A stretch of DNA of 64,000 bases, taken from the NCBI GenBank assembly GCA_019930625.1, contig CP082844.1, forward strand, positions 248,001 to 312,000. The letters run 5' to 3'. Shown piece after piece: positions 16,119 to 59,336 of the stretch. Below the pieces are notes generated by a model that was given only the letters and a program-made list of their open reading frames with translations, had not been told where the DNA came from and made no database searches. This DNA comes from Nocardia asteroides (GTDB taxonomy: Bacteria; Actinomycetota; Actinomycetes; Mycobacteriales; Mycobacteriaceae). Position 1 is the stretch's first letter; every line of letters starts with the position of its first letter. The translations under genes and the position numbers were made by a program.

Positions 16119-16134
16119 TTCCCGACATTGGGAA
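16119..16134. promoter_or_regulatory. TTCCCA-N4-TGGGAA palindrome upstream of pknG
   Basis: TTCCCGACATTGGGAA, one arm mismatch, located 74 bases upstream of the pknG start. It is the only copy outside the ESX region. No GACAAT hexamer follows at the fixed spacing seen elsewhere. Confidence 0.6.
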
Positions 16135-16137
16135 TAG

Positions 16138-16168
16138 ATCCGCCCCGGGCGAACAGCCCGGGGCGGAT
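16138..16168. terminator. Strong hairpin between ansP and pknG
   Basis: ATCCGCCCCGGGC (16138-16150) and GCCCGGGGCGGAT (16156-16168) form a perfect 13-bp stem with a GAACA loop just after the permease stop. There is no U-tract, as is usual for GC-rich actinobacteria. It separates the permease transcript from pknG. Confidence 0.75.
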
Positions 16169-16174
16169 ACTGCT

Positions 16175-17713
16175 TCACTCTTCGTCGGGCTTGTCGAGAA
16201 TCACCACCGGGTCACCGCCGCCCTGCGCCTGCAGCGGCCGCTCGGCCAGGACCGGGAACTGACCGGTGATGCCTTGACGGATCTGCGCGATCTGCAGCAC
16301 CCGCTTGCGGGCGAGGAACCAGCCGCCCACGAGCGCGGGAACCATGATGACGACCATCGCGATCACCGCGCCGCGCTGGACGTGGTCGTCACTGAAGGCC
16401 ATCAGCACCACCACGGCCGCCAGGAACACCAGCGTCGCGAAGCTCGTGTACGGCGCGCCGATCAGGCGGAAGGACGGCCGCTCCGCACGCCCGGTCTTGG
16501 ACCAGCGCCACAGCTGCAGCTGACAGATCACGATGGCGGCCCACGCGAAGATGGTGCCCAGCGCCGACATGTTCAGCACGATCTCGAACGCCTGCTCCGG
16601 CACCACCGCGTTCAGGCCGACGCCGATGAGCGCCACCGCACCGGTGGCGAGGATGCCGACGTAGGGCACGCCGCCGCCGGACATCCGCGCCGCGATGGTG
16701 GGCGCGCTGCCGTTCATCGACATCGAGCGCAGGATGCGGCCGGTCGAGTAGAGGCCGGCGTTCAGGCTGGAGAACGCCGCGGTCAGCACCACGAGGTTCA
16801 TCACAGATCCCGCGCCGTCCACGCCGAGCCGCGAGAAGAAGGTGACGAAGGGGCTCTCCCCGTTCTTGAAAGCGGTGTACGGCAGCAGCAACGCGAGCAG
16901 GACCAGCGAACCCACGTAGAACAGCGCGATCCGGGCGATCACCGAGTTGATCGCGCGCGGCATGATCTTCTCGGGATTCTCCGCCTCACCTGCCGCGGTG
17001 CCGACCAGTTCGACCGCCGCGTAAGCGAAGACCACACCGGTGGTGACCAGGACCAGCGGAAGCAACCCGCTGGGGAACAGCCCGCCGCTGTCTGCGATGA
17101 CACTCGGGCCGGTGACCTGGCCGTCGACCTTGAAGCGTCCCGCGAGGAACACCGTTCCGACGATCAGGAAGGTGACCAGCGCGATCACCTTGATCAGCGC
17201 GGCCCAGAACTCGAGTTCGCCGAACCACTTCACCGACACGAGGTTGATGCTCACCACGAGGGCGAGGGAGACCAGGGCGATCGCCCACTGCGGTATCGCC
17301 TCGAACGCTCCCCAGTAATGGACATAGGTCGCGATGGCGGTGATATCTACGATCCCGGTCATGCACCAGTGGAAGAAGTACATCCACCCGACAGCGAATG
17401 CCAGTTTCTCGCCGTAGAACTCGCGGGCGTAGGAGACGAACGATCCCGAGGAGGGGCGATGCAGCACCAGCTCACCGAGCGCCCGCAGGATGAAGAACAC
17501 GAACACGCCACAGACGGCGTACACGATGAACAGACCCGGGCCCGCACTGGCCAGTCGGCCACCCGCACCGAGGAACAACCCGGTACCGATCGCACCACCG
17601 ATCGCGATCATCTGCAGTTGGCGCGGGCGCAGCGATTTGTGATAGCCCGAGTCCTCGTCTTCGAGCGCGGCAGCCTGCGCGGGCGCCTCCGCGGGTGGTC
17701 GAACTGTGGTCAT
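16175..17713 (-). CDS. ansP: L-asparagine permease (APC superfamily)
   Basis: A 512-residue amino-acid transporter with about 12 membrane segments. The N-terminal [20 protein letters not shown] and the following GTGLFLGAG and [15 protein letters not shown] segments match the AnsP branch of the amino-acid transporter (AAT) family closely, better than the CycA or GabP branches; substrate preference still needs testing. It would import asparagine or related amino acids with protons. ATG at 17713 with GAAAGG upstream. The promoter at 17754-17782 carries a spacer palindrome shared with the gdh promoter. Lies between pknG and gdh, consistent with amino-acid nitrogen use. Confidence 0.88.
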
Positions 17714-17753
17714 GGCGATGGCCTTTCAGGTGACGGCGATCATAACTTCGCCC

Positions 17754-17782
17754 AATGTACCGTTATATAGCGGCACGTTCAA
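17754..17782 (-). promoter_or_regulatory. ansP promoter with operator in the spacer
   Basis: Minus strand: TTGAAC (17782-17777), 17-base spacer GTGCCGCTATATAACGG, TACATT (17759-17754). The palindrome CCGCTAT/ATAACGG (17760-17773) fills the spacer, so a bound protein would block RNA polymerase. The predicted leader is about 34 bases. A divergent role for the SPFH gene at 17923 is possible. Confidence 0.75.
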
Positions 17783-19015: not shown

Positions 19016-19024
19016 TGCGGTCGA

Positions 19025-25945: not shown

Positions 25946-26302
25946 TCAGCGCTTCTTCTCCTCGGTCACGAAGTACTCCGGCGGCACGTCGAACACCCGT
26001 GCCAGCGCGATCACCAGGTCCAGCCGCGGGATCGCGTCCCCGTGGATCAGCCGGTACAGGCCCGACTGCGACACCGGCACGTCCGGGTAGGCCAATTCCA
26101 GATGCTGCGCCAGCGAATAGAGCGTCAACGACCGCGTCGATCCGTCCTCGGTCGAGACGACTGATTCCGCGATCAGCTCCGACAACCGGCTCGAGAAGAT
26201 CGCCGCGGCCGCCTGTCTCGGGGTCAGCGCGTCCCCGGCGTCCTGATGAGGGAGATCGCCGCCATCGGAATGGGGGGTGTCCGCAACCACGGTGATAGAC
26301 AT
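25946..26302 (-). CDS. EspR-like helix-turn-helix regulator
   Basis: A 118-residue protein. Residues about 30-115 resemble the N-terminal helix-turn-helix domain of EspR, the ESX-1 regulator of M. tuberculosis: FSSRLSELIAES, then VSQSGLYRLIHGDAIPRLDL as the turn and recognition helix, then LARVFDVPPEYF, which matches the EspR ANFFRIKAAYF segment in layout. It lacks the longer EspR C-terminal dimerisation helices. ATG at 26302 with GGGAG upstream, 16 bases after the eccE stop, so it is in the ecc operon. A possible binder of the TTCCC palindromes in this window; untested. Confidence 0.7.
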   Translation of the reverse strand: MSITVVADTPHSDGGDLPHQDAGDALTPRQAAAAIFSSRLSELIAESVVSTEDGSTRSLTLYSLAQHLELAYPDVPVSQSGLYRLIHGDAIPRLDLVIALARVFDVPPEYFVTEEKKR

Positions 26303-26318
26303 TAACCGACCACTCCCA

Positions 26319-28040
26319 TCAGCTCACGCGACGGCCACCGGGTTGCGGAGGTGCAACCACGGATCCCGATGCCCCCGCACCATGCGGAGGCGGCCCGTCG
26401 ACGGTATCGAAATATCGTGTCTCGCCTCTCGGCTCGATGAGGTCAACCCGCACCGTGCGCATCGGAATGCTCACGTCCACTGCGGTCGCGCTGACCTGGT
26501 TGATCGCGAGATCGACCGCACGCCTGCGCGGACCGCCGGGCTCGCTGATGGTGACCGTGGTGTGCGCGCTCGACGCGCGCGGCGGTAGGTGGTCGAAGAC
26601 CGCGATGGTGGCCGGAGTCTCCGCCTCCGCACTGTGGTCACCCGTTTGCCCGGCACCGGGAGGGGCCAAGCGCATGGAGCGCGGGTCGCCGACCGCGGTC
26701 ACCAGCTGGCGCCAGTTGTCCGGTCGCGCCGAGTGGATCTCCACGTCCGCGCCGACCACCATGGCCCGGAGGATGATCTGCTGGGCGACCGGCAGGACGG
26801 CCTGCACGTCGATGGTGCGCCTGCGGGGGTTGTACCGGGCCGGGTCGAACAGCGGCAGGGCCAGGGTGTGGCGTGGCTGGCCGCTGATCGCGCCGAGGAT
26901 CTGGCCGTTCGGGCCGATCGCGATAGCCAGTTCGGCCACGAGATCCTCGGGCGCGATGTCGGCGCCGGACTCGAAGCCGCGCAAGGCGCGGACGGAGGCG
27001 CCGGTGGGCAACGAGGCCAGCAAGGCCGTGGACTGGTCGCCACCCAGTAGTCGCAGATACTCCGGAGGTTCTGTGGTCACGGCCGGACCGATGAACCGGA
27101 CCAGCGCGCGCGGACCGCTCGTGTCGGCGGTCAGGCTCACCACGAGGGTGGTTCGGCCGCGGTTCCAGGTCCAGCAGTCGCCCAGGCCCACCCCGCCCAG
27201 TTGGCTCCAGTCGATCAGGAAGCTGGTCACACACCGGCCGGGCACCGACGACTCCAGGTTGCTCCAGGTTTCCCGGAGATCGGAGAGCTCGACCCCGGCG
27301 TGCAGCAGCCGCGTGGCGTCTCGTAGCGCGTCCGCGGGCAGGGCGTGGGCGGCGATGCCGCGTTCACGCAGGCGCCCCGCGATCCGATGGGTGGCGCTGG
27401 CCAGTGCTTTGGGAGCGACCACCGAGCACGGGCCGCGCTTGCTCAGCGCCGCCAGGTTGCGTTCCTGGTCGAGCCGGACCACCAGCCAGGTCAGCCGGTC
27501 CCCGACCACCGGGTGGGAGCCGATCAGCTGGTCGTAGAGCATGCTGTAGCTACCGGTGGAACGGACCCGCTGACCGGTAGTGACGATGTCGATGTCGACC
27601 GAGATGCCGAACTGGTCCAGCATCGGCAGCAGCAGATCGACCGGAATGGTGTCCTCGGTGTAGAGCGTTCGCTCGCCGATGACCGTGGGCAGGTCCAGAT
27701 TGGGCGCGAGCTGGATCATCGCGATCAGCGTGGTGCCCGCCTCGTTGACGCCGCACACGCCCGCGGCGACCTGCACATCCCGGATTTCGGCGCGCTGTGC
27801 CCGTTCACGCGCCCGCGCGGTGCGGCCGCTTCGGTAGCCAGCCCAGTCGAGCAGCCAGCGCGCGCCGGTGCGTCCGTTCACCCGGACGGTCACCGTTGTC
27901 AGCAGGACCGTGACCACCACCGCGCTCACCCACCACGGCGTCTTGGCAGACAGGCCGACCAGCAGCGGGCTGCCGACGACGACGAAGGCGGCGAACGGAC
28001 CACGCTCGACGCCGGCGACCCGAACGCTCGGAAAGCTCAC
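26319..28040 (-). CDS. eccE: ESX core component EccE
   Basis: A 573-residue membrane protein of the ESX translocon periphery. Two N-terminal membrane segments (FAAFVVVGSPLLVGL and WWVSAVVVTVLLTTVTV, residues about 15-50) are followed by a large cytosolic domain. EccE stabilises the EccB-C-D complex in known ESX systems. The GTG at 28040 overlaps the mycP stop (GTGA). The open frame continues 329 codons upstream antisense-free of any EccE character, so the overlap decides the start. The C-terminus is Pro/Gly-rich. Confidence 0.87.
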   Translation of the reverse strand: MSFPSVRVAGVERGPFAAFVVVGSPLLVGLSAKTPWWVSAVVVTVLLTTVTVRVNGRTGARWLLDWAGYRSGRTARARERAQRAEIRDVQVAAGVCGVNEAGTTLIAMIQLAPNLDLPTVIGERTLYTEDTIPVDLLLPMLDQFGISVDIDIVTTGQRVRSTGSYSMLYDQLIGSHPVVGDRLTWLVVRLDQERNLAALSKRGPCSVVAPKALASATHRIAGRLRERGIAAHALPADALRDATRLLHAGVELSDLRETWSNLESSVPGRCVTSFLIDWSQLGGVGLGDCWTWNRGRTTLVVSLTADTSGPRALVRFIGPAVTTEPPEYLRLLGGDQSTALLASLPTGASVRALRGFESGADIAPEDLVAELAIAIGPNGQILGAISGQPRHTLALPLFDPARYNPRRRTIDVQAVLPVAQQIILRAMVVGADVEIHSARPDNWRQLVTAVGDPRSMRLAPPGAGQTGDHSAEAETPATIAVFDHLPPRASSAHTTVTISEPGGPRRRAVDLAINQVSATAVDVSIPMRTVRVDLIEPRGETRYFDTVDGPPPHGAGASGSVVAPPQPGGRRVS

Positions 28041-29395
28041 CGGCGCCTCCGCTTCACGGAGTTCAGGTGGCTGCCGGCCAACCCGAGCAGCACGGCCGCC
28101 AGGATGACGACGGTCGCGGTGACGGCGGGCCGTAGATCCTTCGGACGCGGCGGAGCCGGAATGGGCAGCGCCGCGGACTGGAACAGGCCCGCGGGTTGCT
28201 GCGGCGGCGTGCGGTAGCTCAGGGCGGCGAGCGGGTCGATCACGCCCGCGCCGACCGCGTTGTCGATGCCGCGCGCCGGAGCGTGCGCGCTGGCTTGGAG
28301 GCGGGCGGCGATCTCCCGCGGGGTTTCGTTGGGGAAACGCGACCGCAGCAAAGCGGCCACCCCGCTGACGTAGGCCGCGGCGAACGACGCGCCACCGACG
28401 GGCACGAGCTTGTCCGGTTCGCCGACACCGTTGATCAATCCACCGCCGCCGGGGCCGAGCGATTCGATGCCGGTCCCCGGGGCGGCGACCGAAACCCACG
28501 GTCCGGTGAGCGAATCCTGCATGGGTGCGCCGGTAGCTGTGGTGAATCCCACGGTGAGCACGTCGGCGCCGAACCAACCGGGCGTCGAGATGGTCTTCAC
28601 GTCGCGCCAATTGCGCGGGTCGGCAGGGCGAGTGGGGTCGACGTCCGGATTCTGCGCGCAGTTCGCGGCGCCCGCGCTGTTGCCCGCGCCCGCGACGATA
28701 AGCGCGCCACGGGCATGGACGGCATAGCCGATGGCGGCCGAGAGCATGGACTGGTCCACCTGCGCGTCCACTGGCATGCAGATAGGCAGCGACACTGTGA
28801 TCACGCCCGCGCCTTGGTTCGCGGCACGCGTGATCGCTCTGGCCAGCGTCCGGATTTCGATGGCCATCCGCTGGCTCTGATCGGAACTCGGTCGTTCGGG
28901 GATGAACGCGCCGGAACGAGTGCGAATGGAGATGATCCGCGAGTCCGGGGCCACACCGGCGAATCCGTCGGTGGGATCGGATGTCGCGCCGATGATTCCG
29001 GCGACCAGCGTGCCGTGCGCGTCGCAATCGGACAGTCCGTCGCCGCCGGCCGCCAGGTAGTCCCCACCGCCGACCAGGTTGGGCAAGCGCGGGTGGGGCT
29101 GCACTCCCGTGTCGATGACGGCGACGGTCACGCCGGCGCCCCGGCTCAGTGCCCTGGCGCGGCGCAGATCCAGCGCCAGTTCCGGTGGTGGAGTGCGGGT
29201 GAGGTCGCTGTCGGGCAAGACGCCCGCGGCCAGGCAGCCTTTATCCTGCTTCATCGGCTGTTCGGGCCCCGGCGGGTCGTCGGCGGGCGGCGAGCCCACT
29301 ATCACTTGGGGCGGTTCGAGCGCTACGGCGGGAGCGGCGGTGACGGCGAGCATCACCCCGGCGAGAACGGCCACAGCGGCGCTGCCGACCTTCAT
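28037..29395 (-). CDS. mycP: Mycosin, subtilisin-like ESX protease
   Basis: A 452-residue membrane-anchored serine protease. A signal peptide (VGSAAVAVLAGVMLAVTAAPAVA) is followed by a subtilase domain with the catalytic Asp in VAVIDTGV, His in CDAHGTLVAGI and Ser in GGASFAAAYVSG, plus the oxyanion region AGAGNSAG. A Pro-rich linker and one C-terminal membrane helix (TATVVILAAVLLGLAG) anchor it facing the periplasm. Mycosins are needed for ESX stability and trim some substrates. ATG at 29395 overlaps the eccD stop by one base (TGATG); the stop overlaps eccE. Confidence 0.94.
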   Translation of the reverse strand: MKVGSAAVAVLAGVMLAVTAAPAVALEPPQVIVGSPPADDPPGPEQPMKQDKGCLAAGVLPDSDLTRTPPPELALDLRRARALSRGAGVTVAVIDTGVQPHPRLPNLVGGGDYLAAGGDGLSDCDAHGTLVAGIIGATSDPTDGFAGVAPDSRIISIRTRSGAFIPERPSSDQSQRMAIEIRTLARAITRAANQGAGVITVSLPICMPVDAQVDQSMLSAAIGYAVHARGALIVAGAGNSAGAANCAQNPDVDPTRPADPRNWRDVKTISTPGWFGADVLTVGFTTATGAPMQDSLTGPWVSVAAPGTGIESLGPGGGGLINGVGEPDKLVPVGGASFAAAYVSGVAALLRSRFPNETPREIAARLQASAHAPARGIDNAVGAGVIDPLAALSYRTPPQQPAGLFQSAALPIPAPPRPKDLRPAVTATVVILAAVLLGLAGSHLNSVKRRRR

Positions 29396-30918
29396 CAGAT
29401 TCCTCGCATCGCGGTGTAGACGCCCATGATCCAGAACGCGATCACCGGCACCACCAGGATGAGTGCGTATTCCACCAGGTCGATGACGCGCCGGGTCACC
29501 GGAGACAGCCGTTTGCCCGGCAACCGGAGTGCCGCGAGACAAGCCGCGCACGCCGCCAAGGCCACCACCAGTCCGACCACAAGACGTGCGACCGGCGTCT
29601 CGTAGGCGCCGACCAGAACGAAACCGACGCCGCACACCGTGACCGCGGACCCCGAGATCAGCGCGATCGCCTGGACGCGATCCGGGTGCCAGCGCGCACG
29701 CATCGCCAGCAGTCCACCGAGTGCGGCGGCCATGACGATCTCGCGGATGCCACCGGGGCTGACCGCGGCACAGATCACCGCGGAGACCGCGAGCACGGTG
29801 GAGATCGCGGCGATCAGGCCGCGCAGGCTGGTCACCGCGAGCCGGGCGCGGCTTTCGATACCCGCCTCGGTGGCAAGACGCTGCTGCTCGCCGACCGCGG
29901 TGTGCTCGTCCCCCTCACGCACCGTCTCCGCGTCGAAAATGTCGGTCAACGTGTTCGGCGAGACCTCGGTGCCCGGATCGGGCAGATCCGGTGGCCGGAT
30001 GCGGGCGATGACCACGGCCAAGCGCGGCGCCATTGTCAGCAGCACGATCCCGACGAACGCCACACCGCCCGCGACCTGCCCGACCGAAAGATTCGCGTAG
30101 GTCAGCGGCAAGGCGGCGACGGTCAGCACGATGCCGAGCACGGTCACCGCCATCAAAGTCGCGATGCCCACTCCGCTCAACCGCATCATGGTGGCGGCGG
30201 CCACCGCGGCCACCACGGCTCCGGCCGCCAGGTTGGCCGCGGCGAACGGGCCGGGCTGGCCGTAGGCGGGCGGCACCAGCATCGCACCGCCCGCGAACAG
30301 CAGGGGCGTCGCCGCCAGCGTCAAGCCGAGGGAGAGCTTCGCCGGAGCGTCACGGCGGCGGGCCAGCGCGGCCGCGGCCCAGCACAAGCCGCCGAGCAGC
30401 AGGGCAGGCAAACCGCACCACAAGGCCGAACCTGTCATGGTCCACGACCAGGACAGCATGGCGGCCACCGCCGAGGCGCCGATACCGAGCGTGGCCAGCC
30501 CGACGATCGCGGCGGTGTTCGCGTCGAATTCGGCGAATTCGCGCTCGTTGATCAGCGCCAGGGCGTCGGTGATGTCCTCGACCACCGGCGTGAACACCTC
30601 CGCCGACTCGACCACCGACAGCATCAGCACGGTGCCGTCGGTGACGTCGTGGTCGTCCAGGCTGCGCCAGCGCGGAATCGGCGGCTCGCCGGGCCGCGCC
30701 AGGCTCCACTGGCCCTGCGGCGGGGTGAAGTCGACGCTCTCGTCGTCGATGGCCGAGGCCAGCACGACCAGCAGGTCGTCGATGAAGGTCTCGATGGTGA
30801 ACTTGGTAGGCACCACCACGTCGACCTGATAGGTGGAGACCATCACGGCGATCCGGGCCCGTGCGACCTCCGCTGACGGCTGCGTCCCGGCAGGCGCGGG
30901 CGCGACGGCGGTGCTCAT
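29395..30918 (-). CDS. eccD: ESX core membrane channel component EccD
   Basis: A 507-residue protein. The N-terminal ubiquitin-like domain (residues about 20-115; IAVMVSTYQVDVVVPTKFTI) is followed by about 11 membrane helices. EccD dimers form the barrel-like membrane part of the ESX translocon. ATG at 30918; the upstream espI-like stop is 34 bases away. The order eccD-mycP-eccE with overlapping ends is that of the ESX-3 type. Confidence 0.93.
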   Translation of the reverse strand: MSTAVAPAPAGTQPSAEVARARIAVMVSTYQVDVVVPTKFTIETFIDDLLVVLASAIDDESVDFTPPQGQWSLARPGEPPIPRWRSLDDHDVTDGTVLMLSVVESAEVFTPVVEDITDALALINEREFAEFDANTAAIVGLATLGIGASAVAAMLSWSWTMTGSALWCGLPALLLGGLCWAAAALARRRDAPAKLSLGLTLAATPLLFAGGAMLVPPAYGQPGPFAAANLAAGAVVAAVAAATMMRLSGVGIATLMAVTVLGIVLTVAALPLTYANLSVGQVAGGVAFVGIVLLTMAPRLAVVIARIRPPDLPDPGTEVSPNTLTDIFDAETVREGDEHTAVGEQQRLATEAGIESRARLAVTSLRGLIAAISTVLAVSAVICAAVSPGGIREIVMAAALGGLLAMRARWHPDRVQAIALISGSAVTVCGVGFVLVGAYETPVARLVVGLVVALAACAACLAALRLPGKRLSPVTRRVIDLVEYALILVVPVIAFWIMGVYTAMRGI

Positions 30919-30952
30919 GCCTCCGCCTCGATCGCTCGCTCACTACGCTCGC

Positions 30953-32530
30953 TCATCGCCACCCTCCGCGGTCCCCGGAGTTGTCGGCGCCGCCGGAGAG
31001 GTATCCAGGGAATCCATCGGCCAGCCACGCGGCCAGCTCCTCGAACGCGAGCACGGTCTCCTTCTCCAGCAGCCGGAGGTCGATTTCGCCGCCTTCGGCC
31101 AGATGCGCGTCATAGGGCAGTACGCAGGTGGGGCGCTGCGCGGTCTCGAACAGCTTCTCGATCGCGTCCACGTCGACGGTCGGCTTCAGCGGCTGGTGGT
31201 GCACGATGCCGACGATCGACTTGGCGATCAAGTGTTGCAGGCCATGAGAACTCAGCCAGTTCAGGGTGGCCACCGCGCCGGTCACACCGCCCACCGTCGC
31301 CGGGGTGACGACCACGACGGCGTCGCTGGTCTGCAGCACCGTCGACGTCACCGAATCCAGCACACCGGTCCCGCAGTCCACCACCAGCAGGTTGAAGTGC
31401 TTGCGTAGCACCTCCACGGCGGTGCTGTACTCGCGGCCGGACAGCGCCTCGGTGGCCTCGGTCGACCAGGGCGAGGCGATCACGGCCAGGTCGGAGGAGT
31501 TGATCGAGGTGAACGACTGCACCGCGGAGAACGCGTCGAGGTTCTGCGACTGCGCCAGATCGCGCAGGGTCAGGCCGTAAGGGTGCCTGCAGGTGCGGGT
31601 CGACAAGTCGCCGAAGTCCGGGTTCGCGTCGATCGCGACCACCCGGTCCGGGCGCAGGCCCGCGAAGGTCGACCCGAGCGTCGCCGCGGTGGTGGTGCGG
31701 CCGACGCCGCCCTTCACACTGATCACCGCGATCTGATAGGTGGTGGTGAGCTGGCGTCGGATTCGCATCTTGCGGTCCTCGGCGCGCTGCTCGGCAGGCG
31801 AAAGCCCGAGATTGAAGCCGACTTTGTTGAGGGCACCGCGCATGCCGGTGCTGGAGCGCAGTTGCGCCCGCTTCGCGGCGGAGATGTCGGCGAGCAGGTC
31901 GATCGAGCTGAGCGCGGCGGGCAGCACCTCGATCCGCGGCGTCGGTTCATAGGCCGAGTGGTCGACGCGCTCGGGAACCCAGGGCGTCGCGGATCCGGAC
32001 TGCCATTCGTCATTCGCGGATGCGGCATCGGTCCGCGCGATCGCCTGTGACACCCGGGCGGCCGCCTGCTCGGCGCGGTATTGCTCGGCGGACTGCTCAT
32101 GTGCCGAATAATTTTGCGCCGCTTGCGGTGTGGCAGGCGGCGCTACGGAGTAGTCCGGCGGAGGCGTGCCCGCCGACGGCGGGGGCACATTCGACTGCGG
32201 AGGCGTGCTCGGCTGCGGAGGCGTGCTCGGCCGCGCCATCTGCGCATTCGCCTGCCGCGGCGGCACGCTGGCACTTGGTGGCGGCGTCACCGCGCCCTGC
32301 TGCGGGGAATGAGACTCGGATCCCCCAGTGGACGCCAGCGGCTCACGCGGCGGGCCGATCACGGGGTCGACGTGGGAGAACGCTTCGGCGTCCTGTCGGG
32401 TCTCGGGGGCGGGGCCCGGCGCGACAGCCGCGTCGGTCAGCTCGTTCGTCGGTGCGAAGTACGCGTCGTAACCGCCGCGAGCGCGCGCGGATTCGGCCGA
32501 ATGACCGTTGATGCTCGGTGCTCGGTTCAT
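30953..32530 (-). CDS. EspI-like protein: Pro-rich N-terminus plus MinD-like ATPase
   Basis: A 525-residue protein. Residues about 1-200 are disordered and Pro/Gln/Ser-rich; residues about 260-510 form a MinD/ParA-like P-loop domain with deviant Walker A VKGGVGRTTTAAT, then AIDANPDFGDLS and LLVVDCGTG. EspI in M. tuberculosis has the same layout and modulates ESX-1 according to ATP state. I chose ATG at 32530 with GGAGAGG about 10 bases upstream. It sits between espG and eccD, the position of espI next to eccD in ESX-1. Confidence 0.82.
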   Translation of the reverse strand: MNRAPSINGHSAESARARGGYDAYFAPTNELTDAAVAPGPAPETRQDAEAFSHVDPVIGPPREPLASTGGSESHSPQQGAVTPPPSASVPPRQANAQMARPSTPPQPSTPPQSNVPPPSAGTPPPDYSVAPPATPQAAQNYSAHEQSAEQYRAEQAAARVSQAIARTDAASANDEWQSGSATPWVPERVDHSAYEPTPRIEVLPAALSSIDLLADISAAKRAQLRSSTGMRGALNKVGFNLGLSPAEQRAEDRKMRIRRQLTTTYQIAVISVKGGVGRTTTAATLGSTFAGLRPDRVVAIDANPDFGDLSTRTCRHPYGLTLRDLAQSQNLDAFSAVQSFTSINSSDLAVIASPWSTEATEALSGREYSTAVEVLRKHFNLLVVDCGTGVLDSVTSTVLQTSDAVVVVTPATVGGVTGAVATLNWLSSHGLQHLIAKSIVGIVHHQPLKPTVDVDAIEKLFETAQRPTCVLPYDAHLAEGGEIDLRLLEKETVLAFEELAAWLADGFPGYLSGGADNSGDRGGWR

Positions 32531-32564
32531 TTCCGTCGTCCTCTCCACAACCACGGTCCGACGT

Positions 32565-33458
32565 TCAGTTCATTCTGCTGGTGTCGAACCAACTTCGGCC
32601 GGGCAGCAGGTCGATGAGCCCCCCGATGCCCGACCGCAAGGCCGCATCGTCGCCGGGGGCATATCTGGCCCACTTCCGTCCGTCCATCGCAACGCTCGGA
32701 GTCACGATGATCCGCCCTGACAGGGTATCCACCACGTGCACGGCGAATTCGGGCTTCGGCGAGCTGCCGTCGTGGTGCTCGATGATCACCACTTCCGCCC
32801 GTCGGACCACCTCGTCCAGCACCCGGCTCAACACGGCGGCGGCATGCGGTTCCGCACCGAGTTCCACCAGGGCACGACGGCGTTCGTCCTGGTCGTCGGG
32901 TATCTCACCGAATTGCTCCACCGTCGCGGTGACCGGCTCGAACCGCAGCACCGGCGCCGACCCGAGCGCGGTTGCTACGGCGGCCGACAACATATCGAGC
33001 TGGCGGTCCTGCTGGAACACCGACTGGATGACTACATGATCGTCGGAACGCACCGCGAGCACATGGGTCTCGCCCGCGCGCACCAGCGACATTCGCAGCA
33101 TACCCTTCGGTTCGCCATCCAAGCCGGTGTCCAGGATTCGGACAGCCATTTCCACGTCCGCTCGGTAGAGACACATGAGCCAATGCTCGACGGCCGGGTG
33201 CACGCGACCGTCCTCGAGCACGCCCACTTCGGTGAGCTGCGCGGCGACTACGGAATGCACCCGATCCCGATCCTCGATGCGGTAGATATTCGGCAGGAGC
33301 GCCAATACGGGCGGATAGGAGTCGATGCCGACCAGATGCTGTAATAGCAGGGCGGCATCGACATTCAGGTCGATTGCGACTGGATCGTCTTCCACACCTT
33401 CCCCGAATGCATTGTGGTCATTTGTCTCGACTGGATATTCGACCTCGACGCGCGTCAC
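32565..33458 (-). CDS. espG: ESX chaperone EspG
   Basis: A 297-residue cytosolic protein of the EspG family, which binds the tip of PE-PPE heterodimers and delivers them to their own ESX system. Family character is seen in the N-terminal beta-rich segment (DLNVDAALLLQHLVGID), the middle (VHPAVEHWLMCLYRADVEMAVRI) and the C-terminus (GRIIVTPSVAMDGRKWARY). GTG start overlapping the PPE stop (GTGA), so it is co-translated with its likely client. The EspG assignment rests on pattern and position. Confidence 0.82.
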   Translation of the reverse strand: MTRVEVEYPVETNDHNAFGEGVEDDPVAIDLNVDAALLLQHLVGIDSYPPVLALLPNIYRIEDRDRVHSVVAAQLTEVGVLEDGRVHPAVEHWLMCLYRADVEMAVRILDTGLDGEPKGMLRMSLVRAGETHVLAVRSDDHVVIQSVFQQDRQLDMLSAAVATALGSAPVLRFEPVTATVEQFGEIPDDQDERRRALVELGAEPHAAAVLSRVLDEVVRRAEVVIIEHHDGSSPKPEFAVHVVDTLSGRIIVTPSVAMDGRKWARYAPGDDAALRSGIGGLIDLLPGRSWFDTSRMN

Positions 33459-35856: not shown

Positions 35857-35899
35857 TATCCGAGACCTTTCCCGATTGTTTTCTGGTGCAGATCAGGCA

Positions 35900-40618: not shown

Positions 40619-42168
40619 TACGAACCACCGAGCCCGGCGACGATCTTGTTGTTCGGGATACCGTCGTGCTGGATGCGAGCGTCCTTCTGGGAAAGAGGGG
40701 GGCCGACCGCGAACAGGGCGATGATGCTCCACGGCGCGGGGACCGGCGCCCGCAGCCCCAGCGCGGTCAAGGTGGGATCGCCGGTGCCACCGCTCGGATC
40801 GGTGACCACGCCGTAGCGGACGCCGCTGTCGGAAACCCAGTAGAGCGATTCCCGCAGCGGCGAGCCCGGTTCGCTGCCGGTGACCTGTACGAAACGGCCG
40901 GTGTCCCGGGGCAGATAGGCCGCATCGGCGGTCGTGCCGCGCGAGGCGGCCGAGGTCACCAGATCCACCGCACGGTTCTGCTCCTCCTGCTTGAGCGGCA
41001 ACTGCCTGCCCACCAGCAGCTCGGTGGTCGCGTTCGGATCATTCCCGGACCGCGACCAATGCAAGCAGGTCACGCCGGATCGTTCGGGTTCGACCAGCCG
41101 AATAGGCCGGGTCGGGTAACTCGCGGTGCCCGGCCACTGTCCTGGGCGGAGATTCGCAGCGATCACGTCGGGTCCGACAGTCCGGGTGGATACCGCGCCT
41201 TGGGAGTCCGCATTGCGAACCATCGCCGCCAACACGGCGCTGATCCGCACCAGCCCCGACTGTGAGACGAGATAGTACGAAACCCCTTGGTCCGGCGTCG
41301 ACACGGTGAGTACCGACCCGACCGGCGTGGTGAATCCGTTGTTGAGGGTGATCGACTCGCCCTTACCGGGTACGTCGGGTACTCGCAGGGGCGGTGCCTC
41401 GGGGATCGCGTTGACCAATCCCTTCGACGCCGCCATCACCGGGGCGGTCGAGTCGATGCCGAGCGCCATGGCCACCGCGGTGCTGGCGAGGTCGATGGAG
41501 GCGCGCACCACGCCCTTCTCGGCGTCGCCGTAGACCAGCCAGGTCGTGGTGTCGTCGCGCAGCAGTCGGGCCTCGTTATCGACCAATAGGCGGATGGCCT
41601 CACCGTCGACGGTGAGTGGGCCGCCGATCGCGGTCGTCCGCACAGCGGAGCGGCTCACGGTCGGCAGACCGGTCGCCGGGTTGACCGGCGCCGCCGCACC
41701 GGTCCTCGCCGTGTCGCACACCGTCCACGACGAATCCCTCTCGTCGGTGTCGGCGATATTGCCGGGCGCTCCTGGAATGCCGACCCATGGTCCGCGCGGA
41801 TACTTCGACAGCTCGTCCCGGGAAACCTGCACCGGCTTATCGGGGGACCCTACGATCAGCCGAGCCGAGGTGAGATTCAGCGCGGGGAACAGCCGGTTGT
41901 TCAGACGCACGAACAAAGCACCGGTGTCCTTCTCCGCCACGATCTTCGAGTCCCCGACCTTCTTGGCCGGTTTGAAGAATGCCAGCACGGCGGCGCCCGC
42001 GATGATCACGCATGCCAGCGCGATGCCGATCGCGAGCGCGGTGGACCGACCGCGCTGCGGGTCATCGATCATCGACGCGTCTCGACGGACGAGCGCGTGC
42101 TCGATCCGGCGCAGCAGAAATCGCCAGCCAGAGATCTGGTGTTTGGTCACAACCCGGAAGCGCGCCAC
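40618..42168 (-). CDS. eccB: ESX core component EccB
   Basis: A 516-residue protein with a short cytosolic N-terminus carrying the family signature KHQISGWRFLLRRIEHA and VRRDASMIDDP, one membrane helix (ALAIGIALACVIIAGAAVLAFF near residue 55) and a large periplasmic domain with two cysteines (TVCDTA; VTCLHW) that pair in known EccB. GTG start at 42168 with GGAAGGA about 12 bases upstream. Overlaps eccC by one base. Confidence 0.95.
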   Translation of the reverse strand: MARFRVVTKHQISGWRFLLRRIEHALVRRDASMIDDPQRGRSTALAIGIALACVIIAGAAVLAFFKPAKKVGDSKIVAEKDTGALFVRLNNRLFPALNLTSARLIVGSPDKPVQVSRDELSKYPRGPWVGIPGAPGNIADTDERDSSWTVCDTARTGAAAPVNPATGLPTVSRSAVRTTAIGGPLTVDGEAIRLLVDNEARLLRDDTTTWLVYGDAEKGVVRASIDLASTAVAMALGIDSTAPVMAASKGLVNAIPEAPPLRVPDVPGKGESITLNNGFTTPVGSVLTVSTPDQGVSYYLVSQSGLVRISAVLAAMVRNADSQGAVSTRTVGPDVIAANLRPGQWPGTASYPTRPIRLVEPERSGVTCLHWSRSGNDPNATTELLVGRQLPLKQEEQNRAVDLVTSAASRGTTADAAYLPRDTGRFVQVTGSEPGSPLRESLYWVSDSGVRYGVVTDPSGGTGDPTLTALGLRAPVPAPWSIIALFAVGPPLSQKDARIQHDGIPNNKIVAGLGGS

Positions 42169-42272: not shown

Positions 42273-44033
42273 TCACACCCGCGTGCTCGGCGCCAGACCC
42301 TCCAGTGCCGCGGTGACGTCGAACGCGTCGATCGTCATGAGTTCCTCATCGGTCATCGCGGCGATGTCGACGTTTTCCCTGGTGAAGCGGTAGTCACGCT
42401 CGGCTTCGGCGGCCTCGACCACGTTGCGGACGAAGCGGCCGTTGCCTGCCAGGTCGATCAGCCGACGACCGTTCTTGGTCTGTCCCGCCAATTCCTCACA
42501 CCGCAGCCGCAGCACCTCGCGCGCCTGCTCGGACAGTATCGAATCCTTCTTCTGCGCGATGTGCTCGGCGATCTGCACCAGTTCATCGGCGTCGTAGCTG
42601 GCGAAACGGATGCGCTTGGTGAAACGGGAGGCCAGACCGTCGTTGGACGCGAGGAACCGGTCGATCTGGTCCTCGTATCCGGCGATGATCACGACGAGCT
42701 TGTCGCGGTCGTTCTCCATCCGGGCCAGCAGCGTGTCGACCGCTTCCTTGCCGAACGCGTCCCCGCCGGAAAGGCCTTCCTGGATCAGCGTGTACGCCTC
42801 GTCGATGAACAGCACACCGCCGAGCGCCGAGTCGATCAGCGCGTTGGTCTTGGGCGCCGTGTGACCCAGATGGGTGCCGACCATGTCATTGCGGGATACC
42901 TCGATGACGTCGGCGTTCTCGACGACGCCCAGGCCGGCGAAGATCTTGGCGATCACGCGAGCGATGGTCGTCTTACCCGTGCCGGGAGGACCGGAGAAAA
43001 TCAGGTGCTGCGATTTCGAATCCACGGCGAGGCCGCGCTTGGCGCGAACCTGGTCCATCAGCACACCGGACTTGAGCCGGTCGACCTGCTCTTTGACCGA
43101 ATCCATGCCGATCTGCGCCTGCAGCAGATCCGAAGCCTCCGTAAGGAGACTCTCACGTTCGGCGCGGGCCGCGTTGGCGGCCGCTTCGCGGGGGTCGTCA
43201 CCCGTCTTCGGGTCCCACTTGTTCGTCCGGGAGGCGATGAGTTCGGCGGTGGCGACCTCGAACCGGTAGGACTTGTCCCGGACGGCGCGCTGCCATTCCT
43301 CGCGCTCGGGCCACAGCGCCGATCCTTGCAGTCCGTTGAGGATCTTGTCGGCGGCGTCGTGATCGCCGTTGTGCCGCATCAGCATGCCGAGCAGGAAGTG
43401 GGCATCGGCCCAGATGTAGGACAGATTGCCCGACGAGCTGTCCTCCACGATCCGCTGCGCGCGTGGCATGGCCTCACCGAAGCGCCCGAGGTGCGCCAGC
43501 GACTGGGCGGCCATCAGCTCGGCGGCGATATCCAGCAGGCCGTCTTCCAGCACCGGCCGCGCCGTGCGCGCGGCGAGCACCTCCGGCCACTGCTTCGTCC
43601 GGAAGAACAGCGACATGCGCACGAAATCCGCGACATCGTCGCTGGGGACCTCATCGAGAATCGCCGCCGCTTCCTGCCATTCACCGCCTTCGGCATACGA
43701 GCAAGCCTGCGCAATCGCGATCTGGTCGCGATCGGCCATCGCGACACGCAGCCCGTACATGCCGATTTCGACCTGGCACCACAGGGCGCGGTCTACCAGA
43801 CCCGCTCGCTGCTGGTCGCGATAGAGGTTGTGCACCGACCGATAGGCACCGTAGATCACCTCAGAGGTGACCTCCCCCGCCATAGCGCGCCCGAGCCAGG
43901 CATCGCACATGTCCGGGTCGAGGTCGGTGGCGGCCCGAAACGCCGCCGCCGCGTGCTGTTCGTTGCGCACGCCACCGGCGACCAACCCAAGATTCTGAAC
44001 ACCCGTGTAGAACGCGTCCTCGGCCGCTGACAC
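42273..44033 (-). CDS. eccA: ESX AAA+ ATPase EccA
   Basis: A 586-residue cytosolic protein. N-terminal TPR-like helices (residues about 1-270) precede a CbxX/CfxQ-type AAA+ domain with Walker A GPPGTGKTT, Walker B VLFIDEAYTL and the DGLASRFTKRI arginine region. EccA is found in ESX types 1, 2, 3 and 5 but not 4, so this locus is not ESX-4. It is thought to release EspG or recycle substrates. GTG start at 44033 with GGAAGGGAAG upstream. A TTCCC palindrome lies 73 bases before the start. Confidence 0.95.
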   Translation of the reverse strand: MSAAEDAFYTGVQNLGLVAGGVRNEQHAAAAFRAATDLDPDMCDAWLGRAMAGEVTSEVIYGAYRSVHNLYRDQQRAGLVDRALWCQVEIGMYGLRVAMADRDQIAIAQACSYAEGGEWQEAAAILDEVPSDDVADFVRMSLFFRTKQWPEVLAARTARPVLEDGLLDIAAELMAAQSLAHLGRFGEAMPRAQRIVEDSSSGNLSYIWADAHFLLGMLMRHNGDHDAADKILNGLQGSALWPEREEWQRAVRDKSYRFEVATAELIASRTNKWDPKTGDDPREAAANAARAERESLLTEASDLLQAQIGMDSVKEQVDRLKSGVLMDQVRAKRGLAVDSKSQHLIFSGPPGTGKTTIARVIAKIFAGLGVVENADVIEVSRNDMVGTHLGHTAPKTNALIDSALGGVLFIDEAYTLIQEGLSGGDAFGKEAVDTLLARMENDRDKLVVIIAGYEDQIDRFLASNDGLASRFTKRIRFASYDADELVQIAEHIAQKKDSILSEQAREVLRLRCEELAGQTKNGRRLIDLAGNGRFVRNVVEAAEAERDYRFTRENVDIAAMTDEELMTIDAFDVTAALEGLAPSTRV

Positions 44034-44104: not shown

Positions 44105-44122
44105 CTTCCCAACTATGGGAAG
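44105..44122. promoter_or_regulatory. TTCCCA-N4-TGGGAA palindrome upstream of eccA
   Basis: CTTCCCAACTATGGGAAG: 7-base arms are perfect around ACTA, the best copy in the window. Located 73-89 bases upstream of the eccA start. No GACAAT hexamer at the four-base spacing. Confidence 0.7.
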
Positions 44123-46267: not shown

Positions 46268-47221
46268 TCACAGCACTCGCACGACGACGGAGTTGCTGTC
46301 CATGCGTGACCACTTCACCACCGAGCCGGTGTACGGCGCCTCTATGACCATGCCGTTGCCTGCGGCGAGCTGCACGTGCTCCGGTCCTCTGGTGCTGAAG
46401 GATGAGCCAGGAAACACCAGGTCTCCAGCACGTACGTCGTCCGGGTGCACCCGAACCCCGCTGTAGATCTGCTCGTATGTAGTGCGGGGCAGCACCACTT
46501 CACCGTTACTGGCCTGGGCGATCGCGTACTGTGTCAGGCCCGAGCAGTCGAAGCCGCCGCCACTCGGGCCACCAGCGCCGCCGCCGCCCCAGACATAGTC
46601 CGTGCCTAGCCATTTGCTGGCGGCCAGCACCGCGTTCCCGCCCTTCGTCCCGTCCGAGCGCACCATGCCGTCGCGGCGCAGCCGAGAAGCGGACCTGGAC
46701 CTAGCCCTGGACCTGGTACGCCGCCGCCTGCGCGGCACGCCGCCGTGCCTGGCCTGCCGGGTCGGCGGCGTCGCGGGCGGCATGATCTGCGAGGCTTGCT
46801 GCCGCGCGGCTGCGACGTCGGCATCGACCTGCTTCGTGGCATTGGAGATGGTGGTCTGCGCGGCAGCGAGCAGTGCGGGACCGCTGAATCGGGTATCGCC
46901 CACCGAGGCGATCGCCTGCATGCGGGCCTGGAAGTCCGCGATGTGGTTGGTCAGGCGGCCACGGCCGTTGACCGTTCCGTCGCCGGACTCGCCCACGGCT
47001 TTGCTGACGATGCTGTCCTTGCCCGCATGCGATTCCGCGATCGACAGCTGCATCCCCTGCGCCTCGCCGTATCGTAACGCCACCGCCCCGGAATGAGCAC
47101 GCATGTCAGCGGCGATCGCCTGGGTCACGCTCGCCGCCTGGCCGGCGGGCTGACCGTCGCCATATAGGGCGACCAGCGATCGAAGTACTCCGTCCAGGTC
47201 GTCAGTCAGTGCAGGTGCCAT
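46268..47221 (-). CDS. NlpC/P60 peptidoglycan hydrolase, ESX-type N-terminus
   Basis: A 317-residue protein. The N-terminal 150 residues are helical without a Sec signal and resemble small ESX-substrate domains. An Arg-rich linker follows (about residues 160-185). The C-terminal NlpC/P60 domain has the catalytic Cys in FDCSGLTQYA and His in PEHVQLAAG. It should cut peptide stems of peptidoglycan. The lack of a Sec signal and the location suggest export by the adjacent type VII system. ATG at 47221; divergent from the 47398 gene across a region with two TTCCC palindromes. Confidence 0.82.
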   Translation of the reverse strand: MAPALTDDLDGVLRSLVALYGDGQPAGQAASVTQAIAADMRAHSGAVALRYGEAQGMQLSIAESHAGKDSIVSKAVGESGDGTVNGRGRLTNHIADFQARMQAIASVGDTRFSGPALLAAAQTTISNATKQVDADVAAARQQASQIMPPATPPTRQARHGGVPRRRRRTRSRARSRSASRLRRDGMVRSDGTKGGNAVLAASKWLGTDYVWGGGGAGGPSGGGFDCSGLTQYAIAQASNGEVVLPRTTYEQIYSGVRVHPDDVRAGDLVFPGSSFSTRGPEHVQLAAGNGMVIEAPYTGSVVKWSRMDSNSVVVRVL

Positions 47222-47301: not shown

Positions 47302-47317
47302 TTCCCATTCATGGGTG
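47302..47317. promoter_or_regulatory. TTCCCA-N4-TGGG palindrome, left copy
   Basis: TTCCCATTCATGGGTG; CCCAT-TC-ATGGG is a perfect inner repeat. It lies 81 bases upstream of the NlpC/P60 gene in the divergent region. The outer bases of the right arm deviate. Confidence 0.5.
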
Positions 47318-47337: not shown

Positions 47338-47365
47338 CTTCCCAAGTTTGAGAAGCCGGGACAAT
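47338..47365 (+). promoter_or_regulatory. TTCCCA palindrome plus GACAAT, right copy
   Basis: CTTCCCAAGTTTGAGAAG (47338-47355) is followed by four bases and GACAAT (47360-47365), pointing to the 47398 gene. Same spacing as at 50.9 and 59.3 kb. One mismatch in the right arm. Confidence 0.65.
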
Positions 47366-48986: not shown

Positions 48987-50900
48987 TCACGACCGCTCCG
49001 GCGGCGCCACCGACGGAGGTGATGTCGTCGGCGCGACCACGATACCGGGCGGCGGCCCGCCTGCGACGTCGGGCGCGGTGACCGAGGGAACCGTCGGCCG
49101 CGTGACGCGCTCGGGCTGCACGGCGGTGGACACGGGTGCCGGTGTCGAGACGAACTGCGGATGCTGCGTGATCTGTTCGTGCGCGTAGACGGCGTCACGC
49201 AGCGTCTGCCTGCTCGGTTCGTTCGCCAGCAGCAGCAACAGCTCGTTGCAACGGCGCTCGAAGACCATGCTGCGCAACGGGGAAACGCCGGCGTCGAGCC
49301 GCAGCTGCCCGATCTCCACCCGGCCCACGTCGACCCGCTGCCCGAGCATCGAAGCCGCCAGCAGATCGTCGGCGTCGCGCAGTTCGTCCCACAGTTCGCG
49401 TGGCACTGTCTTCCCGGATTGCAGTTCGGCGAGAATCCGTTCGCGAACCCGGCGCGACGTGGCCGCTTCCGCGGGTACCGATCCGGAGCGTCCGACTTGC
49501 CCGTGGGCATCCGCGGCGAGTTCCACACAGCGGGAGACCACCTGCGCGTCGGGTACCGACGAGACATGTTCCAGTCCCGCGATAGAACCGGTCAGACCGA
49601 GGCGGTCGGCGGTGTCCGGGGTGAACTCGCGCAGGTCGACGTCGTAGGAGGGGCCGACGAGCCCTTCCATCGCCGCCTCACCGAAGCGGGAACGCAGGCC
49701 GGGATCGATCGGTCCGGACGACACGAGGGCCGACAATTGCGCGTTCGCCTTCGCACCCCATGCCAAGCCGAATTCCGCCAATACCCGAGCCGGGTCCGTG
49801 ACGCCCTCCCACGGCGATCCGCTGCCGTCGTCGGCTGTGAGCAATTCGTCCCAGTTCCACGGGGTAGAGACCTCACGAGGCAGGAACAATCCGGCGGGCA
49901 GCCAGCCACGGCCTTCGTTCGAGGTGATGAAAATGCCAGTGCCCCCCGGACCACGCATCACCGATACCGCCCAGGCCATGCCCACCGGAGAATCCACTGC
50001 GGCGAGCACGCTGCCGAGCAGCGTCCTGGCGAGTACCAGATCGTCGTTCACCTGGTTGCCCACCATGTACGACGGCTCGGCCTCCTTGTCCTTCGCCGAG
50101 GCGACAGCGGCGGCGAAGGGACTCGAGACCGGTACGGGCATGGGGGGCAGGTCCGACCGGCCCGTGGCACCGCTGGGCGGCTGTGTCGAACCACGGTCCT
50201 CCGCGCCGGAATTGAGCGGCCCCACCCCAGCGGGCGGCATGCCTCCTGTCGTCGGCGACGTCACGCTGGTGCTGGACGGTCCACCCGGTGTCGTCCCGGT
50301 CGCGTTCGGTGTGCCGTTGGTGCTGACAGATTCCGTCGGCATGGCAGTCGCGCCGGGCACACCCGTACCCGACGGTGACGCCCCATTCGGCCCGCCGGGC
50401 GAGGTACCGAGCGGGTTGTTCTGAGTGCCATCGGGTCCGACGGAAGTGGGACCGGCCGAAGTGGGACCGGCCGAGATGGGCGCATCGGACGGCCCACCGG
50501 GCACGGTGGTAGACGGCGACGTCGGCCCGCTCGAACCCAGCGGATCGGTCGAGCTTCCGACCGGCGCCGTCAGGGACGGTTGATCGGTGACGCCGCCCAC
50601 CTGTCGGATGTGCGAGGCGAAATCCTCGTCGGACTGCTCATAAGCGTCCGCGGACGCACGCAACGAGTCACGAGTGCGCTCGTGCTCGCTGGCCAGCGCC
50701 TCGCCCGCACGCTGCCGGGCGTCGTAGTACCGCTCCAGCGCTTCGTAGACCGGATAGGCGATCTTGCCGTAGGTGGGCAGGAAGTTGGCGAGCCAGTCCG
50801 CGGGCGGTTTGGCCCATTCCCGCGTGTCACGCGCGACCCGGTCGTGTTGGTCGGCCAGCTGACGCAAAACCGCAGGGTCGATTTCCATGCTGTTCGGCAT
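48987..50900 (-). CDS. Large ESX-locus protein, EspC-like N-terminus (paralog A)
   Basis: A 637-residue protein. Residues 1-95 form a helical hairpin like small ESX substrates (DPAVLRQLADQHDRVARDTR, then YEALERYYDARQRAGEAL). A Ser/Thr/Pro/Gly-rich linker spans about 100-255. The C-terminal 330 residues are a folded domain shared with the upstream gene: LVLARTLLGSVLAA, FITSNEGRGWLPAGLFLP, WEGVTDPARVLAEFGLAWG, ELWDELRDADDLLAASML and MVFERRCNELLLLL. This may correspond to DUF5631/5632 of the mycobacterial ESX-2 locus protein Rv3899c, but I cannot verify it. It has its own promoter palindrome 47 bases upstream. Confidence 0.68.
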   Translation of the reverse strand: MPNSMEIDPAVLRQLADQHDRVARDTREWAKPPADWLANFLPTYGKIAYPVYEALERYYDARQRAGEALASEHERTRDSLRASADAYEQSDEDFASHIRQVGGVTDQPSLTAPVGSSTDPLGSSGPTSPSTTVPGGPSDAPISAGPTSAGPTSVGPDGTQNNPLGTSPGGPNGASPSGTGVPGATAMPTESVSTNGTPNATGTTPGGPSSTSVTSPTTGGMPPAGVGPLNSGAEDRGSTQPPSGATGRSDLPPMPVPVSSPFAAAVASAKDKEAEPSYMVGNQVNDDLVLARTLLGSVLAAVDSPVGMAWAVSVMRGPGGTGIFITSNEGRGWLPAGLFLPREVSTPWNWDELLTADDGSGSPWEGVTDPARVLAEFGLAWGAKANAQLSALVSSGPIDPGLRSRFGEAAMEGLVGPSYDVDLREFTPDTADRLGLTGSIAGLEHVSSVPDAQVVSRCVELAADAHGQVGRSGSVPAEAATSRRVRERILAELQSGKTVPRELWDELRDADDLLAASMLGQRVDVGRVEIGQLRLDAGVSPLRSMVFERRCNELLLLLANEPSRQTLRDAVYAHEQITQHPQFVSTPAPVSTAVQPERVTRPTVPSVTAPDVAGGPPPGIVVAPTTSPPSVAPPERS

Positions 50901-50935: not shown

Positions 50936-50963
50936 ATTGTCGATCCTTCCCAGACATGGGGAG
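50936..50963 (-). promoter_or_regulatory. TTCCCA palindrome plus GACAAT promoter
   Basis: On the plus strand TTCCCAGACATGGGGA (50947-50962). On the minus strand the palindrome is followed by four bases and GACAAT (50941-50936), placing the transcript start about 25 bases before the ATG at 50900. Confidence 0.7.
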
Positions 50964-55374: not shown

Positions 55375-55396
55375 GACTCCACCTCGCTGCGCTCAC

Positions 55397-58523: not shown

Positions 58524-58534
58524 AGAACTGCTCC

Positions 58535-59080
58535 TCAGCGGGTGAACTGCGTCAATTCATTCAAAACCTTGGTTGGAAGCGTGCCCACCCCCCCAACGAT
58601 CCCCGTCATCGGCGCAGGAGGCACAGCCTTATGCTGCCCGCCCGCAATGCCGGCGCCCACGCTCGCCCCGCCCAACCAACCGCGGGCCGCATTCAGCGAC
58701 GCACCTCTCGCATTCCATGCATCTCCAAAGGCCATGCGATTTGCCGGGTTACGAATACTCGGATTCACCGCTCCCGAAAGCGCCCGCCGCGCCAGATTCT
58801 GCCCACCCATCGTCGCGAATCCGCCGCGGATGGCGCCACCGATACCGCCTCCCAGCAAGGCAAAGGCGCCGGTTTGAGCGCCATTGGTCACCGCTTCACC
58901 GAAGCTGCCGCCCTCGGCCCCGGTTATGGCCGCTTCCGTTAGTCCCGCGAACAAGGCAGCGCCCGCCGCAGTCCCGACGCCAGGAAGGAGCACCGACCCG
59001 ACCGCGCCACCAACAAAGGTGGCGCCGGTGGTCAACGCGAACTTTCCGACATCTCCCCATGAGATACCGAAGAAGCTCAT
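58535..59080 (-). CDS. Glycine-zipper membrane-active protein
   Basis: A 181-residue protein with Gly-rich hydrophobic stretches (TTGATFVGGAVGSVLLPGVG, AAGAALFAGLTEAAI, GAFALLGGGIGGAIRGG) typical of glycine-zipper segments that insert into membranes or pack helices. No signal peptide. Excellent ribosome site GGGAGGTGAT before the ATG at 59080, in which the stop of the small upstream ORF is embedded. Near the head of the ESX accessory operon. Confidence 0.65.
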   Translation of the reverse strand: MSFFGISWGDVGKFALTTGATFVGGAVGSVLLPGVGTAAGAALFAGLTEAAITGAEGGSFGEAVTNGAQTGAFALLGGGIGGAIRGGFATMGGQNLARRALSGAVNPSIRNPANRMAFGDAWNARGASLNAARGWLGGASVGAGIAGGQHKAVPPAPMTGIVGGVGTLPTKVLNELTQFTR

Positions 59081-59084
59081 GAGA

Positions 59085-59282
59085 TCACCTCCCGGTTGCT
59101 AGAGCGAGCGCCGGTCCCCGGCCGACCGGCCGGCCAGACGCCTGGTCGTCGGTTACCCCCATTGCGGCCGGCACCAACCGGTGGGCCGAAGGCGCGCAAG
59201 GTTCGAGCCTCACCACGGCTGAGTCCGCCTCTCGATCGAACTCATCGCCGAACGGGAGCGACGCATGCCAACGACCGACCAT
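59085..59282 (-). CDS. Possible 65-residue leader gene
   Basis: ATG at 59282 with AAGTAGG upstream, about 27 bases after the GACAAT promoter. The stop TGA lies inside the ribosome site of the next gene with a 4-base gap, so coupling is likely. The product has no recognised domain. It would be the first gene of the accessory operon, but could be a non-coding leader. Confidence 0.4.
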   Translation of the reverse strand: MVGRWHASLPFGDEFDREADSAVVRLEPCAPSAHRLVPAAMGVTDDQASGRPVGRGPALALATGR

Positions 59283-59308
59283 GAGTGAGACCTACTTTCG
59301 ACGTCTTC

Positions 59309-59336
59309 ATTGTCGAGGCTTCCCAACTACGGGAAG
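59309..59336 (-). promoter_or_regulatory. TTCCCA palindrome plus GACAAT, accessory operon promoter
   Basis: CTTCCCAACTACGGGAAG (59319-59336); on the minus strand, four bases later comes GACAAT (59314-59309). It drives the operon from 59.3 down to 51.0 kb. It may also act on the divergent CHAP gene at 59526. Confidence 0.72.

Follow-up and report, generated by a model that had tools for sequence, protein, structure and literature searches.

The 64,000-base stretch of Nocardia asteroides DNA analysed here (bases 248,001-312,000 of CP082844.1, the main contig in a genome of 7.42 Mb; hereafter the window) carries a type VII secretion (ESX) locus. A 16-bp palindrome, TTCCCA-N4-TGGGAA, recurs at many of its promoters. 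The sites are conserved among related loci, their four-base gap is strict, their distance to a -10-like element is fixed, and they coincide with the locus. The palindrome is probably a single operator (probability about 0.7). Its regulon would comprise the ESX system (of the type named ESX-1AN), its substrates, a paralog of the kinase gene pknG and a type IV-like operon beyond the window; it would be bound by a dimer of an XRE-family protein encoded in the locus, with an action that may depend on the position of the site.

Copies and distribution of the palindrome

The pattern TTCCCA-N4-TGGGAA was searched for in mismatch classes of 0, at most one and at most two, with shuffles or the reversed pattern as controls. 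A first-pass annotation of the window had listed seven copies in gaps before ESX genes or pknG. All seven coordinates do hold a copy, but only that at 44106 is exact; those at 16119, 36584, 47339, 50947 and 59320 have one mismatch and that at 47302 has two. A weak copy at 35214 (two mismatches) also belongs to the site set, and a one-mismatch copy at 4542 may belong to it. The latter lies approximately 500 bases before a 126-aa gene, and an exact copy is found at the matching place in one relative (L114).

The window contains 13 matches with at most two mismatches, compared to 1.12 expected from shuffles. In the genome-wide scan that the annotation had proposed, 25 places have at most one mismatch (reversed pattern: one), and nine of these fall within 252,542-323,588, the 1% of the genome around the locus. 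The genome has two exact copies, the one at 44106 and another 11.6 kb beyond the window, before tcpC. Outside the locus there are 16 one-mismatch places, of which 14 were inspected and nine of those are in predicted coding sequence. Among the 14, only the site at 1,980,093 looks like a regulon member: it precedes an unlinked WXG100-like gene, with GACAAT 32 bases downstream, and this gene is a probable distant member of the regulon.

Exact copies are present in 16 of 24 Nocardia genomes; the 16 genomes examined that represent other families in the order have none. Across 78 eccA loci taken from named records, there are 72 exact copies, 221 with one mismatch and 77 with two (control: 0, 0 and 12). 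In the 75 loci with the same eccA type as the window, which are from related species, 301 of 369 copies are intergenic, while non-coding DNA makes up only about 11% of the total (89% is called coding by our own GC3-based predictor, on which the split is based). These 301 sites comprise 217 different 16-mers. The four-base gap is found in 293 copies; each of the other gap lengths between 0 and 8 gives no more than 10. Within the site, CCC and GGG are 97-99% conserved and N4 is nearly free; read from these sites, the consensus is TTCCC(A/g)-N4-(T/c)GGGAA. The refuting conditions that the annotation had set for its reading do not hold: the motif is not randomly placed, and it is conserved in orthologous promoters.

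Three further matches were rejected as sites. The one-mismatch copy at 44538-44553 forms the stem of a GC-rich hairpin followed by T's, as read from the sequence, and is an intrinsic terminator stem after a WXG100-like gene. Copies with one or two mismatches recur near this position in close relatives. The matches at 25914 and 42238 have three mismatches and lack a -10 element at the usual spacing; relatives carry good copies at the corresponding promoters. Weaker copies also occur at 12238-13200, around the genes for MerR1 and a DUF1707 protein, and recur in relatives.

Conservation by promoter

The exact copy at 44106..44121 (minus strand) precedes eccA (42273..44033, minus strand). A palindrome is found before eccA in all 75 same-type loci, 63-82 bases ahead of the start, with N4 and flanks varying freely. 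Three loci (L096-L098) whose eccA is of a different type, with 46% identity, have no palindrome before eccA, and xre, the gene of the candidate binder, is absent in the stretch examined.

The copy at 16119..16134 (minus strand) lies upstream of pknG2 (13607..16045, minus strand), which encodes the rubredoxin, kinase and TPR domains of PknG. Among the 30 best pknG matches, which make up the ESX-linked set, the palindrome is upstream in 29; the thirtieth is cut by a contig end. Fifteen pknG genes outside the locus were compared (seven orthologs in genomes without a strong xre match, four second copies and four of another pknG type), and none has a copy with three or fewer mismatches in the approximately 900 bases before the matched region (824 for L220). 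Two of the fifteen (L219 and L238) have one three-mismatch match each farther out, near -900. The second pknG of this genome, 57% identical to pknG2, is without a palindrome. As the site is present at ESX-linked pknG genes and absent at outside ones, the link between ESX and PknG drawn in the first-pass annotation is real but concerns a locus-resident paralog. A common regulator for the two is well supported, and its reach now extends to the type IV-like operon.

As neighbours, pknG2 has genes for NAD-glutamate dehydrogenase, amino acid permease and SPFH proteins (13607-24049). In mycobacteria, PknG is a regulator of glutamate metabolism. Among the matches listed in a literature search, no paper title concerned a PknG paralog in Nocardia.

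The type IV-like operon (G000:C1:312700-323549 of the same genome) encodes TcpC, VirB4-like, lysozyme/DUF4226 and SLT proteins; the TcpC/VirB8-like and VirB4-like proteins have the Pfam domains PF12642 and PF12846, respectively. The palindrome precedes tcpC in all 24 loci compared, in one with two mismatches. Three of these loci (L115, L122 and L003) were chosen as site-bearing or are the genome's own; the other 21 (L269-L288 and L235) were not so chosen, and L269-L288 represent 20 of the 37 genomes in which the VirB4-like gene occurs. This gene (at least 77% identity) is found in exactly the 37 genomes with this eccA type, and G022 has a relative with 36% identity.

Promoter geometry

Two arrangements of palindrome and -10-like element were distinguished. 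In class A, the palindrome is followed by five bases and GACAAT or TANCGT; the annotation had given the interval before GACAAT as four bases. GACAAT is found before the EspC-domain gene (48987..50900, minus strand; site 50947..50962, minus strand), before p47398 (site 47339..47354, plus strand) and before the 58.5-59.3 kb genes (site 59320..59335, minus strand). The element is TACCGT at the site between eccC and the esx-like pair (36584..36599, minus strand), and TAACGT at the weak copy (35214..35229, minus strand) before the PE-like gene of the PE/PPE-espG-ParA-eccD-mycP-eccE-xre run. ACAAT stands at the class A position in 76 of 259 oriented contexts, by far its commonest place. A conserved -35 element was not found in this class.

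In class C (eccA, tcpC and pknG), a -10-like hexamer lies approximately 31-33 bases downstream of the palindrome, and no -35 element was seen. In the window, this hexamer is TATCGT 32 bases downstream at eccA and CAGAAT 31 bases downstream at pknG2. TANNNT is found before eccA at 31-34 bases in 71 of the 75 loci and at 22-23 bases in the other four, in which the start codon is also about ten bases nearer (63-65 bases); the two spacings differ by approximately one helix turn. Over 79 sites there are 76 hits at 21-23 or 31-33 bases, compared to a mean of 3.2 and a maximum of 10 in shuffles. The tcpC promoter gives 24 hits at 30-32 bases in 24 contexts, and pknG gives 21 hits of a CAGAAT/CACAAT-type hexamer at 30-33 bases in 29 loci. 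Before the nlpC-type gene, which encodes an NlpC/P60 protein (46268..47221, minus strand), a palindrome with two mismatches (47302..47317, minus strand) has CACAAT 23 bases downstream.

Given the usual spacing to the start site, the site centres would be at about -25.5 in class A and -52 in class C. Because the distance to the -10 element differs by class, only some promoters have the palindrome in the -35/spacer region. Action at that position, as first proposed, fits a single promoter class; the palindrome lies upstream of the -35 region at eccA, pknG and tcpC.

Candidate regulator

The helix-turn-helix (HTH) genes found in the locus, in a scan that did not take in every protein, are xre, a gene encoding RpiR (61172-62161) and one MerR gene at each end (MerR1, 12306-13037; MerR2, G000:C1:326767). 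The xre gene (25946..26302, minus strand) lies 16 bases after eccE and closes the gene run starting from the PE/esx promoters, so XRE may act on its own expression through the sites there. The protein has the conserved domain PF01381 (HTH_3; 27.0 bits, cutoff 23). Its predicted structure is a five-helix repressor-like HTH fold, common to CI, EspR and C proteins; it ends at residue 117, just past the last helix (107-110), and a C-terminal dimerisation domain is absent. Residues 77-84 (SQSGLYRL), in the region of the recognition helix, are invariant in 37 aligned sequences. A search of 5.8 billion proteins gave 111 homologs; the organism names shown are Nocardia and one metagenome bin labelled Mycobacteriaceae, and the annotations are generic (HTH, transcriptional regulator, hypothetical and similar).

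A strong xre match is present in 38 of 59 Nocardia genomes, namely the 37 with this eccA type and G058, which lacks this eccA type and has a stop in its xre frame. One further match, in G012, is weak (45% identity, E-value: 2.9e-7). The 38 genomes have 12-34 sites with at most one mismatch (the lowest count being in G058), compared to 1-10 in the 21 others, which include G012. As base composition predicts approximately eight chance places per such genome, the counts in these 21 represent background. In the 24-genome set, the 16 genomes with exact copies all have a strong xre and the eight without exact copies do not. XRE is the best candidate for the protein that binds the palindrome and is likely to be that protein, presumably as a dimer.

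In G058, a genome that lacks the VirB4-like gene as well as this eccA type, the region C1:8125000-8136000 contains the interrupted xre frame, a MerR gene and a few palindromes, and is likely to be a remnant of the locus. RpiR was rejected as the binder: it is found in 10 of the 59 genomes, with at least 80% identity in three. Among the papers listed in searches of an open-licence library (PMC), none reported the motif or an ESX regulator in Nocardia, which does not show that no such report exists.

A plasmid form of the module

In Nocardia sp. NBC_01327, the locus module is colinear on a circular plasmid of 292,805 bases (contig C2 of G011; NZ_CP108384). The shared order is tcpC, VirB4-like gene, ESX genes, xre, discoidin, glutamate dehydrogenase, SPFH, permease, PknG-like and MerR genes. 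This plasmid has 44 copies of the palindrome with at most two mismatches (control: 4), among them one located 30 bases before repA. It carries all five exact copies of its genome and 22 of the 32 with at most one mismatch. Two exact copies form a close pair at 221,746 and 223,598. Both xre and the VirB4-like gene are also found in another Nocardia plasmid record (NBC_00511). The NBC_01327 plasmid is classed as non-mobilizable in PLSDB, and no relaxase was seen among the module proteins scanned, a scan that did not cover every protein.

A tentative and rather doubtful extension is that an ex-conjugative ESX plasmid resides in many Nocardia chromosomes, with the type VII system, the type IV-like operon and a private PknG acting as one XRE switch that activates or represses by position. 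If so, the two secretion systems would be parts of one working machine for DNA or protein transfer.

Proposed model and alternatives

The model that we favour is as follows. At class A promoters (those of the esx and PE/PPE runs preceding xre, and those of the substrate genes), XRE bound over the -35/spacer region, with its centre near -25.5, would block RNA polymerase, and at the runs preceding xre this block would limit the synthesis of XRE itself. At eccA, pknG2 and tcpC, where no -35 element is visible, XRE bound approximately 31-33 bases before the -10 element (centre near -52) would help to recruit polymerase. The dependence of action on position, which would resemble that of lambda CI or restriction-modification C proteins, and with it the sign of regulation, is put forward less firmly than the identity of the binder.

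XRE could instead be a plain repressor at every site, a global off-switch resembling the Kor proteins of IncP plasmids, with the upstream sites repressing as well. This is a serious possibility, if somewhat short of even odds. It would suit a small HTH protein in which no sensor domain is seen, the class with its site over the -35/spacer region, and the many-site regulon of the 293-kb plasmid, with its site before repA. However, at eccA, tcpC and pknG the site ends approximately 44 bases before the expected start, and a repressor would need neither the conserved distance to the -10 element nor the shift by one helix turn in four of the 75 eccA loci. Dual, position-dependent action is our first choice, slightly preferred over pure repression.

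The binder might also be another protein. The co-occurrence of xre and sites is confounded with the locus itself, and a regulator encoded elsewhere could produce it; this is unlikely, as the G011 plasmid, bearing locus and xre, holds its genome's exact copies and most of its one-mismatch sites, while genomes without a strong xre have 1-10. Still less probable is a flanking MerR-family regulator acting in the -35/-10 spacer. Two MerR genes do flank the locus, MerR1 has two-mismatch sites upstream in 11 of 11 loci (L159-L169), and a spacer position fits one promoter class. Against this, seven genomes without a strong xre have MerR1 (87-90% identical over the part compared) beside pknG with no site upstream of either gene, all ten MerR1 promoters outside the locus lack the site, no conserved -35 element lies upstream of the palindrome, and the eccA, pknG and tcpC sites are outside the spacer. 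MerR1 was rejected as the binder on these grounds. MerR2 was rejected more weakly: 12 upstream regions (L299-L308, L003 and L235) have no site with 0-1 mismatch, although MerR2 usually accompanies the locus. A reading of the palindromes as terminators, hairpins in RNA or random matches holds for the copy at 44538, which is a terminator, but is refuted for the set by the free N4 and flanks, the strict gap length, the fixed -10 distance and the rarity of the control pattern.

Gene content of the locus

The locus is an ESX-1AN-type type VII system. The genes eccA-E, mycP, espG, espI-type ParA, PE/PPE and esx are present in operonic order, and the window eccA is 97-99% identical to that of named Nocardia of the N. 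abscessus/asiatica group. Pfam domains in the window identify PknG, NAD-glutamate dehydrogenase, amino acid permease, SPFH, EccE, mycosin, EccD, ParA-like, EspG, PPE, fused EccC, EccB, EccA, WXG100-like, NlpC/P60, EspC-domain and PE/PPE-EspB proteins; the lysozyme/DUF4226, VirB4-like and TcpC genes are beyond the window. All on the minus strand are eccB (40618..42168), the fused FtsK/SpoIIIE gene eccC (36611..40732), the genes for PPE, EspG, ParA-like (EspI-type), EccD, mycosin and EccE proteins (26319..34792), and the esx-like pair (35560..36208). The pair, which has no Pfam match, and the PE-like gene are assigned by size, position and relatives only.

Comparison with known systems

Such a cluster in N. 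brasiliensis and N. cyriacigeorgica was named ESX-1AN, with a proposed plasmid origin (Newton-Foot 2016, PMC4791881). Its ESX gene content is the same, and the passages of that paper on ESX-1AN mention neither an operator or regulator nor a type IV-like operon. For an ESX locus that is not mycobacterial, the present analysis provides a defined operator, a target list and a candidate regulator.

Mycobacterial ESX plasmids likewise combine type IV secretion-like and ESX genes, and have XRE homologs with 33-42% identity, adjoining eccA in two. The TTCCCA palindrome is not enriched in the stretches examined of three of these plasmids (L309-L312, 147 kb; three two-mismatch matches, three controls), and no other convincing recurrent palindrome was found in the same 147 kb. 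In the xre homolog of the Mycobacterium avium plasmid p1-JPH1 (L309 19899-20654), the HTH unit is duplicated in tandem within a single protein.

EspR of Mycobacterium tuberculosis has the HTH fold in common with XRE; it is described as a nucleoid-associated protein that carries a C-terminal dimer domain and recognises TTTGC[TC][GA] at hundreds of sites (PMC3315491). XRE ends directly behind its HTH, and the motif associated with it is a strict palindrome of 16 bp. The conserved motif here, for which XRE is the candidate binder, is different from that of EspR. Controller (C) proteins and lambda CI act according to site position, as is proposed for XRE, but they belong to restriction-modification systems and phage, respectively, which XRE does not, and XRE has many target operons.

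In the KorA/KorB regulon of IncP plasmids, a plasmid-type module has the same operator at many of its promoters, as is seen here; the likeness drawn is one of layout, and the Nocardia locus is chromosomal in this genome. Shared regulation of this kind would couple type VII secretion to the type IV-like operon and to a PknG paralog of its own, and the plasmid form of the module is relevant to the origin from plasmids that has been proposed for ESX systems.
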